From a virus: a stretch of 36,891 nt of DNA. Location: the IMG/VR virus record IMGVR_UViG_3300028388_004445, positions 1 through 36,891 of that record, one strand, 5' to 3'. Both the position numbers and the translations under genes were made by a program. Numbering within the stretch: position 1 is the first letter of the stretch; each line of letters opens with the position of its first letter. Positions 24,916-36,180 of the stretch are shown here, piece after piece. The notes under the pieces are model-generated. The model did not search any database. It saw only the letters and a list, made by a program, of their open reading frames with translations, and was not told the DNA's origin.

Positions 24916-25100
24916 TGGGTTGTAGGAGTAATAAAGCTAATATCGAAGAACTGATTGTTCGCGAGCCTGGCACCCTGATCTATAGTGATCAGGGCGTTGA
25001 GCTTACACTGCAAGATGGCAGTATTATTATGACTTCTAAGGCATCGTATATTACTCCCAACACCGCTGCAAGATTAAAGACAAAGGATATTAACGGATGA
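24915..25100 (+). CDS. Small hypothetical protein
   Basis: 61 residues from a GTG at 24915 that shares its first base with the previous stop codon (TAGTG). The frame extends further upstream without a better start. N-terminal Cys3 and basic residues, then GTLIYSDQGVELTLQDGSIIMTS, probably a small beta sheet. It overlaps queD by four bases (ATGA). Not recognised. Confidence 0.52.
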   Translation: MGCRSNKANIEELIVREPGTLIYSDQGVELTLQDGSIIMTSKASYITPNTAARLKTKDING

Positions 25101-25588
25101 CACAATACAAATATGTTAGCACAAAGGAATATCACGACGAGTTTCCTTGTGCTTACAGACAGTGGCGCGCTGACTCGCATTGCAACATGATCCACGGATA
25201 CAGCTTCTCTATGAAGTTCTGGTTCGGCACCAACGAGCTTGACGTTCGCAACTGGGTTGCCGACTATGGTGGTCTGAAAGAGCTGAAAGCAGTTCTCAAG
25301 GATCAGTTTGATCACACTCTGCTGGTTGCAGAAGATGATCCTGAGCTTGAGACATTCAAGCTGCTACAAGAGAAGAAGATGGCAAAGCTGACGATCCTTC
25401 CGAAGCTTGGCTGTGAAGGTCTTGCTGACCAGCTTTACAAGTATGTTAACGGTGTCTACATTCCTGATATGTGGGGTCCTGCAGAGGCTGAGCGTCTGTG
25501 GTGCTTCCGTGTAGAAGTTCGTGAGACTCAGAGCAATATGGCGTATCGTGAGGGACATCGTCTAGACGGAGAGGATCTGTTTGAATGA
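25097..25588 (+). CDS. queD: 6-carboxytetrahydropterin synthase QueD, phage-type PTPS
   Basis: T-fold enzyme converting dihydroneopterin triphosphate to 6-carboxy-tetrahydropterin, step two of 7-deazaguanine synthesis. 163 residues. It contains ADSHCNMIHGYSFSMKF (Cys29 as the catalytic cysteine, His33), DYGGLKELK and FDHTLLV (DH pair). It differs from bacterial QueD: the first zinc histidine (FxAAH) is Tyr20 and the second His of HGH is Tyr35, as I recall in phage forms with the RQWxAxSHCxxIHGY pattern. Overlaps queE by four bases. Confidence 0.86.
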   Translation: MTQYKYVSTKEYHDEFPCAYRQWRADSHCNMIHGYSFSMKFWFGTNELDVRNWVADYGGLKELKAVLKDQFDHTLLVAEDDPELETFKLLQEKKMAKLTILPKLGCEGLADQLYKYVNGVYIPDMWGPAEAERLWCFRVEVRETQSNMAYREGHRLDGEDLFE

Positions 25589-26517
25589 CAGTGAAAAAAT
25601 ACACATACAGTGAAATTTTCAATTCAATACAAGGGGAAGGTGTATTTACTGGCCAGTGGACGTTGTGGCTGCGATTCTTTATGTGCAACCTGCAGTGTAA
25701 CGGTTTTGGTCAGAAACATCCAACCAAACCAGAAACATGGGATCTTCCTTACGAAGATTTTGATGTGAGCACGGTTAAGCGAGTTGAAGATTTGCCTGTG
25801 TGGGAAAAGGGTTGTGACTCTAGCTACACATGGGCAAAGAAATATAAGCACCTAATGGCACAAAAGACCGCAGCTGAGATTTACCAAGACATTGTCGATG
25901 CTACACGAACACCATCTAATCCTCAAGGTAGGTTCCTCCACCCGAATAGCAATCAAACAGCTGATATGTGTTTCACTGGTGGTGAACCATTTCTTAAACC
26001 TGCACAAAATGCTGTGATGGAATTGTACCAGCTATTTAAGGACGATAATAATCTTCCGAGGTCAATTACATGGGAAACTAATGGTACACAACCATTAATG
26101 CCACACTTTGAAGCATATCTAACAAATCCAGGTAAGTTTGATACACCGGTATTGTTTAGCGTATCACCAAAATTGTGGACCGTTGCTGGTGAAAAGCGGG
26201 AAAAGGCAATTAAGCCAGATATTGTTAAAGAATATTATAGAATAGGTAATTTTATCAATCGCAACAGTAAGCTACCATCTGGTCAGTTAAAGTTTGTTGT
26301 TGGTGCAGATGATGAAATGTGGGAAGAACTTGAGGAAGTTGTTGCAATATTCCGCCAAGCTGGAGTAGACTGGCCGGTGTATATTATGCCTGTCGGTGCT
26401 ACTGTAGAAGAACAAGAAAGATCGGCTGGTGATGTGGCAAGGATAGCGTATCAGCGCGGATACAATGTTTCCGGAAGGCTTCATTGTTATCTGTGGGGCA
26501 ATGCAATTGGAACGTGA
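25585..26517 (+). CDS. queE: 7-carboxy-7-deazaguanine synthase QueE, phage-type radical SAM
   Basis: Radical SAM enzyme making CDG from carboxy-tetrahydropterin. 310 residues. SIQGEGVFTG (14-23) and the cluster cysteines Cys34 and Cys38 (CNLQC) are clear. The third cluster cysteine appears to be Cys77 in KGCDSSYTW, which resembles the WCDTxYTW of bacterial QueE. A 38-residue segment beginning GFGQKHPTKP therefore interrupts the usual CX3CX2C. MCFTGGEPFL (the GGEP SAM motif) is near residue 130, and ETNGTQ follows. Longer than bacterial QueE (about 220). Confidence 0.88.
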   Translation: MTVKKYTYSEIFNSIQGEGVFTGQWTLWLRFFMCNLQCNGFGQKHPTKPETWDLPYEDFDVSTVKRVEDLPVWEKGCDSSYTWAKKYKHLMAQKTAAEIYQDIVDATRTPSNPQGRFLHPNSNQTADMCFTGGEPFLKPAQNAVMELYQLFKDDNNLPRSITWETNGTQPLMPHFEAYLTNPGKFDTPVLFSVSPKLWTVAGEKREKAIKPDIVKEYYRIGNFINRNSKLPSGQLKFVVGADDEMWEELEEVVAIFRQAGVDWPVYIMPVGATVEEQERSAGDVARIAYQRGYNVSGRLHCYLWGNAIGT

Positions 26518-26526
26518 GGAATATAG

Positions 26527-27291
26527 ATGAGTGAATTTATTTCAACCAACCGCGATCGTGATGACATCGAAGAAGACATTGTAGATCAACAACCACCGAC
26601 AAGAGTTTCTAATCTATTGCGCGATCGACTAATCGCTAGTGGCCAGAGGTTTTTTGCTAACGACAATATTAGCGACTACATCAACGACGAAGAACGCGCA
26701 ATGTTGATTGATGAGCTGACTGTTAAGTTTGAGGATGTGCTAGACAGTCTGTTGATTGATAGGTTTAACGATCCAAACAGTCATGGGACGCCTCGCCGTC
26801 TCGCTAAAATGTATGTTAATGAGCTTATGCGCGGCCGTTTTTATCCTGGTCCGGAAGTTACTGCGTTCCCTAACGACAATGCTGAGACGCGCTATAGTGG
26901 GATGATTAACGTTCGCGCTGAGATTACGTCAATGTGCTCCCATCACCATCAACCGGTCAAGGGTGTTTGTTATATTGGCTTGCTGCCAAGTGTTAAGGTA
27001 ATTGGACTTAGCAAATACGCTCGTATTGCTCAGCACTGCGCAAGACGTGGAACGTTGCAGGAGGAGCTGACTAAGATGATCGCCGACGAGATTCAAGCAG
27101 CAACAAAAGCTACCGACATTGCGGTGTACATTCAGGGGACCCATGGGTGCATGGAGAATCGTGGCGTTTGTGCACATAGCTCACTAACGCAAACAGCGGA
27201 GCTGCGCGGACAATTCTTCAACCCAAGCGTTAAAAACGAATTCCTTGATTACATCAAAATGCAGCAACAATTTGCAGGAAATCGCACATAA
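26527..27291 (+). CDS. folE: GTP cyclohydrolase I, FolE-type
   Basis: Opens GTP to dihydroneopterin triphosphate, the entry step of queuosine-type synthesis. 254 residues. Zinc ligands Cys137 and a His in CSHHHQP, and Cys208 in GTHGCMENRGV, are present, as are GLSKYARIAQHCARRGTLQEELT, AVYIQGTHG and LRG near the C-terminus. An N-terminal extension of about 60 residues is acidic. GAGGAA is the ribosome site. It is the last gene of the thyX operon; a new promoter follows within six bases of its stop. Confidence 0.92.
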   Translation: MSEFISTNRDRDDIEEDIVDQQPPTRVSNLLRDRLIASGQRFFANDNISDYINDEERAMLIDELTVKFEDVLDSLLIDRFNDPNSHGTPRRLAKMYVNELMRGRFYPGPEVTAFPNDNAETRYSGMINVRAEITSMCSHHHQPVKGVCYIGLLPSVKVIGLSKYARIAQHCARRGTLQEELTKMIADEIQAATKATDIAVYIQGTHGCMENRGVCAHSSLTQTAELRGQFFNPSVKNEFLDYIKMQQQFAGNRT

Positions 27292-31932: not shown

Positions 31933-32817
31933 ATGACCGAGTTTTGCCATATCACTCCGACGGAGTATCTTGATCTATTTGCACACAACAGATCACACCA
32001 TCTTTCTCTCGCACATCTTATTGAACAAGATCCGGTTTATGCGAACTGGTATAAAAATAATGCTGAGAGAAATCCTGATTCAGTGAACATAATGGACAAT
32101 AGTGCATTTGAAATGTACAAGCAGGGACGAGATATGTACCCTGCACACAAGCTATTGGAAATGGCGACTAAGGTAGATGCTGATTATGTGGTGCTATCTG
32201 ATTACCCATCGCAAGAATCGATGCATACAATTGAGGCAGCTTATTTGTTAGCACCTGAAATTAGGCGTAACGGCTTTGGTACATTTTTCGTTCCTCAGTC
32301 GGAAGTTGGTGACTTAGAAGATTTGATCTTTGCGTTTAAGTGGGCTGCAGAGAGTCCTTTGATTGATTATGTTGGTGTTTCCATCCTCGCTGTGCCAAAT
32401 GCATATGGCGTTGAACGTGGTAATAAACTACAACGATTCCTTAGCAGATGGTGGTTTATGAACGAATTGAATAAGAGAGGGGTTCTAAAACACCTAAAAG
32501 CGCGAGGTAAGAAGATCCATTTTCTTGGTATGGTTGATGGGCCAAACGAGATTGCGCTGGTAAAAGATTATCTGTGGGCGATTGATACGTGGGACAGTAG
32601 TGCAGCTGTATGGGCAGGTATCAACGACATTGAGTTTGATCAATCACCATCAGGACTAGTTGACGGCAAGTACGAAGTTGAGGTAGACTTTAATCACAAT
32701 ACCGCGACGTTAAATCAAATGGCAAAGGCGATGAAGAACTGCTTTTATATTGACCAACTGATTGAAAGCATTCAAGGGTTTAATGCCATAGAGATCAACC
32801 TTGATCCATGGCGGTGA
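31933..32817 (+). CDS. dpdA: DpdA-like DNA 7-deazaguanine transglycosylase (TGT fold)
   Basis: 294 residues. The motif order matches phage DpdA proteins: MDNSAFEM (Asp55-Glu60), the active-site-type segment VVLSDYPSQES with Asp90, YVGVSILAVP (about 146-155), IHFLGM (195-200) and DTWDSSAAVW (218-227), the second candidate catalytic Asp region. DpdA swaps guanine in DNA for preQ0-type bases, as TGT does in tRNA. The zinc-binding cysteines of TGT are absent, as in phage DpdA. The precursor genes queD, queE and folE are 6 kb upstream. I am fairly sure of the superfamily; tRNA as substrate is the alternative. Confidence 0.72.
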   Translation: MTEFCHITPTEYLDLFAHNRSHHLSLAHLIEQDPVYANWYKNNAERNPDSVNIMDNSAFEMYKQGRDMYPAHKLLEMATKVDADYVVLSDYPSQESMHTIEAAYLLAPEIRRNGFGTFFVPQSEVGDLEDLIFAFKWAAESPLIDYVGVSILAVPNAYGVERGNKLQRFLSRWWFMNELNKRGVLKHLKARGKKIHFLGMVDGPNEIALVKDYLWAIDTWDSSAAVWAGINDIEFDQSPSGLVDGKYEVEVDFNHNTATLNQMAKAMKNCFYIDQLIESIQGFNAIEINLDPWR

Positions 32818-34878: not shown

Positions 34879-35026
34879 GTTTCTTGAGATTTGGTTAAAC
34901 GTAATTGGCGTTATTAAGCCAAAACGAAAGTCTCTGCACGCACCGATTAAGCATCCAAAGACAAAACAACCAATAGTATCACAAGGATGGAAACCAAGTT
35001 ATGACGGAGAGCAACCGCCATTCTAA
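34811..35026 (+). CDS. Small hypothetical protein overlapping muramidase gene
   Basis: 71 residues from GTG 34811 (GGAG nine bases upstream), overlapping the previous gene by 68 bases in another frame; ATG 34820 is an alternative. The polar N-terminus (QQSNQSTNTTQ) lies in the overlap. The unique part EFLEIWLNVIGVIKPKRKSLHAP is helical, then basic. It overlaps the DUF1289 gene by 26 bases. Not recognised. Confidence 0.5.
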   Translation: MTEMQQSNQSTNTTQANEDNIPEFLEIWLNVIGVIKPKRKSLHAPIKHPKTKQPIVSQGWKPSYDGEQPPF

Positions 35027-35210
35027 TAGTTACGTAACGCCATGTATTAGCGTGTGCAGAGTAGATCCATATACAAAACACTGCCATGGATGTGGTAGGT
35101 CACTGGATCAAATTCGTGATTGGACAAATTATACCGATCAGCAGCGAATGGAAATTATGAAGGCTTTGGGTTACGGAAAACGTAAGAAAAAGCTGAGTAA
35201 AGATAAATAA
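35001..35210 (+). CDS. DUF1289 family zinc/Fe-S-like small protein
   Basis: 69 residues with PCISVCRVDPYTKHCHGCGRS (Cys15, Cys19, Cys28, Cys31) followed by LDQIRDWTNYTDQQRMEIM. This is the DUF1289 signature (PCxxxCxxDxxxxxCxGCgRtldEIxxW) found in many Alpha- and Gammaproteobacteria. Its function is unknown; four cysteines suggest metal binding. The basic C-terminal tail KRKKKLSKDK is not typical. It is probably host-derived. Confidence 0.82.
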   Translation: MTESNRHSNSYVTPCISVCRVDPYTKHCHGCGRSLDQIRDWTNYTDQQRMEIMKALGYGKRKKKLSKDK

Positions 35211-35240: not shown

Positions 35241-35274
35241 GTAGACGAGGGTGCGATTCCCTCCTGGTCCACCA
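35241..35274 (+). repeat. 34-bp duplicate of tmRNA acceptor 3' end
   Basis: Identical to 35543-35576: GTAGAC, T-arm GAGGG-TGCGATT-CCCTC, acceptor strand CTGGTCC and ACCA. No pairing 5' acceptor strand lies within tRNA distance upstream, so it is not a tRNA. A small AGCC/GGCT hairpin precedes it. It would need the coding piece of the tmRNA to pair with. Confidence 0.88.
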
Positions 35275-35287
35275 AAAGGAAACTAAA

Positions 35288-35422
35288 ATGAAACTAAGTG
35301 AAGCAGAACGTATTGTAGCACAAGTTATCACAAACAAATTGAAGGTAACTGGTAGTGCTAAATGGGCTAAAATTCTAGCACCTGAAATCGTCAAAGCACT
35401 CAGTGATGCGATGAAAAAATAG
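35288..35422 (+). CDS. Small helical hypothetical protein between tmRNA repeats
   Basis: 44 residues from ATG 35288 (AAGGAAAC upstream). The frame is open upstream through the tmRNA-like repeat, but that part is RNA-like. Amphipathic helices (LSEAERIVAQVITNKL, then KWAKILAPEIVKALSDAMKK). It lies in the 268 bases between the two acceptor copies. Not recognised. Confidence 0.52.
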   Translation: MKLSEAERIVAQVITNKLKVTGSAKWAKILAPEIVKALSDAMKK

Positions 35423-35444: not shown

Positions 35445-35510
35445 ATGTGGTGTGTGGGAAGACAAAATCATTTTGTGGTTGACATAACGAGTAACCTAGG
35501 CTATAAATAG
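35445..35510 (+). CDS. Possible tiny peptide gene
   Basis: 21 codons with a strong GGAGG ribosome site ten bases before the ATG, ending within the -10 region of the tmRNA promoter. It has no recognisable features (MWCVGRQNHFVV...). Listed because of the ribosome site; it may be chance. Confidence 0.28.
   Translation: MWCVGRQNHFVVDITSNLGYK
35479..35507 (+). promoter_or_regulatory. Promoter of tmRNA gene (sigma70, overlaps late box)
   Basis: TTGACA, 17-base spacer, TATAAA; the -10 is part of TATAAATA (35502-35509), the gp55 late box. Start expected near 35514. The tmRNA could be made both early and late. Confidence 0.83.
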
Positions 35511-35513
35511 TTT

Positions 35514-35817
35514 TGTAATCGATGAAGCGATGTGACGACGGAGTAGACGAGGGTGCGATTCCCTCCTGGTCCACCATAGATACACTGTGGTGCGTTATAC
35601 CAGCGTAAGCAGGATATCCTGTAGAGGTAGAAAGCAGTGTATCTTTGATGGGCCAGAATAGGATCGATACACGACCGAAGCAGAGTGGAGATTACCGTGT
35701 TGACCTACGTTATTCGGTCAAAACAACTAACTGCAAACACAAATGCAGCACCTCGTGCTTACGCTCTAGCAGCGTAAGTTACATGGGCCCGCCGAGAGCC
35801 TGGAAACAGAATCTCGG
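35514..35817 (+). ncRNA. ssrA: Circularly permuted (two-piece) tmRNA
   Basis: Acceptor piece first, then intervening segment, then coding piece. The acceptor piece (about 35514-35576) ends in T-arm GAGGG-TGCGATT-CCCTC, CTGGTCC, A and CCA. The coding piece starts at GGGCCAG (35650), pairing with CTGGTCC over 7 bp including G3-U70, the alanine identity pair. It then has a GGATCGA D-loop. The tag frame starts at GCA 35733, nucleotide 84 of the piece (about 90 in E. coli): ANTNAAPRAYALAA, then TAA. The intervening segment closes with AGATACACTG (35578) / CAGTGTATCT (35635), a 10-bp stem. GTAATC (35515) can pair with GATTAC (35690), a candidate for helix 2. The T-loop has G instead of the usual U55. 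It has its own promoter and terminator. Tag, acceptor stem and order agree, so the call is strong; pseudoknots are not resolved. Confidence 0.9.
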
Positions 35818-35823
35818 TTTTTT
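35792..35823 (+). terminator. Terminator of tmRNA gene
   Basis: CCGAGA (35792-35797) / TCTCGG (35812-35817), 14-base loop, then TTTTTT. Confidence 0.86.
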
Positions 35824-35847: not shown

Positions 35848-36180
35848 ATGAAAAGTGTAATTTTCGCGGCCGCTATGGCCATTGGTGCAACTTCTGCAGC
35901 ACATGCAGGTGAATGGGCCATGCTTGGAGAAACTGAATATGCAGTTGAAGCAGATGTTTTTTCTCTTGAAGCTGGTGCAGAGTATGCGTGGGACAAATTC
36001 CGCGTCACGGGCATGCTGAACATGGATAACGATACTATCAGCGATGAATTCGATTTCACTGGAGCTGATGTTGAGTTTGGATATCAGCTATCTGAAAACA
36101 TTGAAGCATATGCTCGCGTTGAACTTGATGATGGCTTGGAATATTCCGACGTTGTTATTGGAGCTACTTTCCGCTTCTAA
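35848..36180 (+). CDS. Small outer-membrane beta-barrel protein
   Basis: 110 residues. Sec signal peptide KSVIFAAAMAIGATSAAHA with cleavage likely after residue 20 (AHA-GEW). The mature part of about 90 residues alternates hydrophobic and polar residues (VFSLEAGAEYAWDKFRVTGML, FDFTGADVEFGYQLS, IEAYARVELDD, VVIGATFRF) and ends in Phe, the usual BAM-recognised C-terminus. AAGGA is the ribosome site. It lies right behind the tmRNA terminator. A change of the cell surface, for example superinfection exclusion, is an inference. Confidence 0.72.
   Translation: MKSVIFAAAMAIGATSAAHAGEWAMLGETEYAVEADVFSLEAGAEYAWDKFRVTGMLNMDNDTISDEFDFTGADVEFGYQLSENIEAYARVELDDGLEYSDVVIGATFRF

Follow-up and report, generated by a model that had tools for sequence, protein, structure and literature searches.

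Stalled ribosomes are rescued by tmRNA, which also tags the incomplete proteins. Of the 53 two-piece tmRNA structures counted in phages by 2021, 50 came from marine or aquatic samples, and one of the carriers is the T4-like phage Melnitz (PMC9004378, published in 2022). The genome of Pelagibacter phage Mosig also has an annotated ssrA. A first-pass annotation of the DNA studied here knew of few tmRNAs in phages, most of them one-piece; this view is outdated, and because two-piece tmRNAs of T4-like marine phages are published (PMC9004378), the present gene is not the first of its kind. What deserves following up is the tag family, together with the protein genes that sit between the tmRNA pieces of some relatives.

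The 36,891 bases analysed, hereafter the window, make up one IMG/VR virus record. Like Methylophilales phage Melnitz and Pelagibacter phage Mosig, which are T4-like (Kyanoviridae) marine phages, it carries a two-piece tmRNA of alphaproteobacterial type with its own promoter region, and the Mosig tmRNA scores 93.6 bits with the Rfam model RF04321, equal to that of the window. The neighbours differ: a late-transcription coactivator and thyX in Melnitz and Mosig, a DUF1289 gene and a beta-barrel gene in the window, which, unlike the two phages, lacks a glutamine riboswitch (no such Rfam match over cut-off). Host tmRNA of the Caulobacter type (RF01849) shares the permuted order, the G3-U70 pair, the CCA end and the 3' AACAGAA hairpin. 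The tmRNA of one relative (L246) has short DNA matches in Bacteriophage DSS3_MAL1, where an ssrA is annotated, and in tracts of the roseophages MD18, RcXuper, V10 and DSS3P8; unlike the window gene, the DSS3_MAL1 ssrA and the roseophage tracts sit among tRNA genes.

Layout of the tmRNA gene and its surroundings

The T4-like origin proposed for the window is well founded. Its major capsid protein is 68% identical and its DNA polymerase 55% identical to those of Phage C48C1 (Kyanoviridae), and T4-type capsid, polymerase and replication genes are present. A GroEL-like chaperonin (Cpn60_TCP1, E=6e-36) is encoded at 177-1376, the profile being matched only from position 80. PTPS (QueD-like), a radical-SAM-like QueE candidate and GTP cyclohydrolase I are found adjacent in series (25097-27291), and a 294-aa protein (31933-32817), with neither a Pfam nor a PHROG match, resembles phage DpdA by eye; this set perhaps serves 7-deazaguanine DNA modification.

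The tmRNA gene lies on the + strand, as do all window features described below. It is matched by RF04321 (tmRNA_permuted) at 35514-35777 with 93.6 bits (E=4.6e-17, cut-off 47) and by RF01849 (alpha_tmRNA) at 35475-35820 with 65.4 bits (cut-off 50). RF00023 has no match at this locus and ARAGORN detected no tmRNA in the window, so that standard annotation would overlook the gene. Both matching models give the order acceptor piece, intervening segment, coding piece and, together with covariation among relatives, they uphold the earlier reading of a phage-encoded, permuted two-piece tmRNA. The false permuted matches found in G056, G068, G058, G085 and G096 are one-piece tmRNAs behind a tRNA; the window gene, with no T-arm downstream of its coding piece, is unlike these. 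RF04321 scores such one-piece genes behind a tRNA in L285, L286, L287, L289 and L290, those of L285 and L286 exceeding its cut-off. The L286 locus includes a ROOL RNA (1952-2540, 381.9 bits) within a tRNA cluster of viral contig IMGVR_UViG_3300006139_000005.

The acceptor piece (35515..35576, 5' end approximate; family profile E=1e-13) comprises a 5' hairpin region, the T-stem GAGGG/CCCTC (35549-35553/35561-35565), the acceptor 3' strand CTGGTCC (35566-35572), A 35573 and an encoded CCA (35574-35576). An intervening segment of 73 nt (35577..35649), predicted from the covariance-model alignment and an inverted repeat to be removed from the precursor, is closed by a helix between AGATACACTG (35578-35587) and CAGTGTATCT (35635-35644). 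The coding piece (35650..35817) is supported by the Rfam models and by a profile of 98 family members that matches 35638-35814 with E=9e-30. It begins with the acceptor 5' strand GGGCCAG (35650-35656), which forms with CTGGTCC the 7-bp stem claimed earlier, the third pair being G-U in the sequence (G3-U70), and it continues with a D-loop-like GGATCGA (35661-35667) and the outer-helix strand GATTAC (35690-35695). In most relatives the linker behind this strand has one nucleotide more than the window's linker behind GGGCCAG. In the outer helix, GUAAUC (35515-35520) pairs with GAUUAC (35690-35695), which would hold the two pieces together.

This structure is not a product of chance. The predicted fold is much stabler than shuffled sequences (z = -4.9). 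When the window is aligned with six relatives, with trimming by eye around the helices that favours pairing, all 126 cells of the 18 pairs of the acceptor stem, T-stem and outer helix are paired, and 8 of the 18 pairs are altered on both sides. The covariation score is 0.54 against 0.16 for shuffled alignments, and none of 500 shuffles reached 0.54. The same picture comes from 57 distinct viral tmRNAs that were selected with no rule on pairing: 383 of 399 acceptor cells are paired (shuffled maximum 344), and pair 3 is G-U in 54 of the 57.

The proposed sigma70-type promoter also stood up to comparison. TTGACA (35479-35484) and TATAAA (35502-35507) are separated by 17 nt (promoter 35479..35507), and of 94 related viral tmRNAs 34 have TTGAC-17-TATA in front of them, as against none of the 94 control stretches, which lie 200 bp farther upstream. 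The terminator proposed at the other end requires a different reading. The hairpin with AACAGAA (35792-35817), which with the following T6 spans 35792..35823, is seen in sequence and fold; AACAGAA follows the tag in 92 of the 94 related tmRNAs whereas a T run is found in 14 only, so the hairpin is mainly a conserved 3' part of the coding piece and a terminator secondarily, although with T6 in the window it may double as one.

Two proteins whose genes lie 5' of the tmRNA served as queries in the search for relatives, and 7 of 50 records so obtained have a permuted tmRNA above cut-off. The DUF1289 gene (35001..35210; Pfam PF06945, E=2e-17) lies directly before the tmRNA in one relative, L251. 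Downstream, a gene for a small secreted beta-barrel-like protein (35848..36180; Porin_4, E=3e-5, below the Pfam cut-off) is kept in four relatives (L246, L247, L248 and L251). Two further records, L128 (6780-6840) and L129, have no tmRNA match; there GTGAACGTTGAAGCAACGTG, resembling the 5' end of the relatives' tmRNA, stands alone before the beta-barrel gene and is probably a deletion scar of the tmRNA gene. Such apparent loss would make the gene dispensable. No SmpB gene was found among 20 related phage records, six of them from a named phage collection, and SmpB is therefore presumed to come from the host.

The tag and its viral family

The tag frame claimed earlier is confirmed by the Rfam model, the sequence and homologous tags: it reads ANTNAAPRAYALAA-stop at 35733..35777 (GCA..TAA), with GCA as resume codon. 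Relatives have the homologous tags ANNNFAPSGLALAA, ANDNFAPSDYALAA, ANENFAPKAFALAA, ANDNFAPSGYALAA and ANSNFAPRGLALAA, all ending in ALAA. At least 120 viral contigs have a tag of the form AN[DNE]NFAPxxxALAA when searched with a DNA pattern, which by itself partly fixes N2, N4, A6 and ALAA; F occupies position 5 in 117 of 128 tags examined. The window tag agrees with the family consensus in length, N2, N4, AP and ALAA and differs at positions 3 and 5, where T and A replace D/N/E and F.

Compared with host ssrA tags, the viral tag resembles that of Rhodobacteraceae but is two residues longer. The host tag has 12 residues, and the form ANxN[RK]AP[VM]ALAA occurs in 54 of 100 Rhodobacteraceae genomes (a few of the 54 deviate at the bracketed positions), whereas viral tags mostly have 14 residues, with F at position 5. 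A codon-free pattern for the 14-residue form matched 1 of 385 alphaproteobacterial genomes, a MAG with eight permuted tmRNAs in which the matches fall on contigs bearing extra, phage-like copies. The eight genes lie on separate contigs of this Rhodobacteraceae MAG (G099, the MAG of L295), which suggests that these are phage contigs binned in. A search of 84,980 genomes also gave one match, with a pattern that fixes the Leu codon as CTA; since many hosts do not use CTA for that Leu, we set this count aside as a measure of rarity and regard the codon-free pattern as the fair test. As far as the sampled genomes go, the comparison suggests that the tag is virus-specific.

That the tmRNA identifies the host lineage, as had also been claimed, holds only as a suggestion: Melnitz infects OM43, yet its tmRNA is of alphaproteobacterial type (PMC9004378).

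Protein genes between the tmRNA pieces

Intervening segments of the relatives measure 25-443 nt (median about 82 nt), the long ones of L248 and L343 in the unbiased count being due to mis-assigned T-arms. Several relatives have protein genes in this place (coordinates on the oriented strand). In L301 (8700-9040) a DUF6356-like gene begins behind the CCA, and its stop codon overlaps the closing helix. L252 and L253 (1501-2088 in each) have two ORFs between the pieces, one of them DUF6356. An HNH endonuclease gene (PHROG 2255, E=2e-25) fills the segment of L398 (12440-12920), and a putative membrane protein is encoded between the pieces of L403 (2920-3440). The closing helix is retained despite the nested gene, as in L301 and L398.

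As content of the intervening sequences of permuted genes, the tmRNA database paper names a tRNA gene and a repetitive element; endonuclease genes it mentions for group I introns only (PMC11915505). In the open-access literature we found no report of protein genes in intervening segments of permuted tmRNAs. We lean, by a narrow balance, towards the view that marine phages have their own permuted tmRNA lineage, with a conserved, virus-specific tag and an intervening segment in which protein genes (DUF6356, HNH endonuclease, membrane proteins) can settle and become part of the precursor.

The second acceptor copy and the probable function of the gene

An exact second copy of 34 nt of the acceptor piece, overlooked in the first-pass annotation, lies at 35241..35274 (acceptor profile E=1.3e-7). 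The same GTAGACGAGGGTGCGATTCCCTCCTGGTCCACCA, comprising T-arm, acceptor 3' strand and CCA, stands at 35241-35274 and at 35543-35576. The extra copy has neither a 5' half to pair with the coding piece, nor a matching intervening helix, nor a coding piece of its own; it ends at CCA and is followed by a ribosome-binding-site-like AAAGGAAA and, before the tmRNA promoter, a 44-aa ORF (35288..35422) with no family match. No comparable second copy was found at the 98 other viral tmRNA loci (G056 and G068, considered as further cases, were rejected as one-piece tmRNAs behind a tRNA), and no other viral contig contains the exact 31-mer of the acceptor. Two kinds of remnant were also looked for and rejected: that of a promoter 5' of the copy (p=0.23) and, in the stretch separating the 44-aa ORF from the tmRNA promoter, that of a vanished coding piece (p=0.3, no profile match).

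The copy is most likely a relic of duplication or of site-specific insertion, and an assembly join or chimera is possible. Together with the small ORF it may be a remnant of gene traffic similar to that in the intervening segments. A more specific origin, which we consider possible but rather doubtful, is a displaced attachment-site fragment from a mobile element whose target was the tmRNA acceptor piece, in the manner of islands in bacterial ssrA. The copy stops exactly at CCA, and about 300 bp and a small ORF separate the two copies where L251 has DUF1289 directly before the tmRNA; moreover, islands favour tmRNA genes (PMC4383910). However, no integrase was seen, the fragment is found upstream, not downstream, the sequence in front of the copy resembles the promoter no more than by chance, and the copy occurs in a single contig, where a chimera may account for it.

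An extra acceptor fragment is also what might be expected if the RNA were made but acted against the host's trans-translation, perhaps by sequestering SmpB. Such interference has been proposed for a tRNA-like domain of mycobacteriophage DS6A that has no tag. In E. coli, a tRNA-like domain by itself is enough to inhibit tmRNA, according to work cited in PMC4131195 and PMC11915505. We hold this to be improbable for the window gene, since an intact tag frame ending in ALAA, a resume codon and the 3' domain are kept family-wide and an inhibitor would need none of them. A decaying or passenger copy of host origin, functionless in the phage, would fit the slightly divergent window tag and the relatives in which the gene is missing or reduced to a scar. 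Compensatory helix changes, the conserved tag, the promoter and the downstream gene speak against such decay, which seems if anything slightly less probable still. The Rfam scores, the covariation, the homologous tags, the promoter shared with 34 of 94 relatives and the downstream gene kept in four of them argue that the window gene is very probably a functional phage-borne ssrA of the circularly permuted alphaproteobacterial type; the divergent tag positions 3 and 5, the shorter linker and the apparent loss in L128 and L129 count against this.

Such an ssrA would most likely work with the host's alanyl-tRNA synthetase (AlaRS), SmpB and ClpXP. By analogy with known two-piece tmRNAs, from which we infer transcription, processing, charging and tagging, its own promoter would give a precursor with the acceptor piece first, whose two halves would pair through the intervening helix and the acceptor stem. 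Host tRNA-processing enzymes would excise the intervening segment to leave two RNAs that stay base-paired, the acceptor piece with its CCA end and the coding piece. After charging by host alanyl-tRNA synthetase via G3-U70, the tmRNA would enter stalled ribosomes with host SmpB and EF-Tu, add ANTNAAPRAYALAA and release the ribosome, and host proteases would degrade the tagged protein. The phage could benefit in that ribosomes would stay in service while host RNA is degraded. The advantages suggested in the first-pass annotation, escape from host control or a substitute for host tmRNA lost to degradation during infection, would be hypothetical further ones.

The window gene is a well-supported addition to phage-borne trans-translation, one that ARAGORN overlooks. 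As judged from sequence, the family suggests that two-piece tmRNA genes are a common feature of marine phages and that their tag differs from that of the sampled hosts. Protein genes nested between tmRNA pieces would, if true, be a new gene arrangement, and they would raise the question of how one precursor acts as both mRNA and tmRNA. The distinct viral tag makes it testable whether these phages turn ribosome rescue or tagging to their own advantage.
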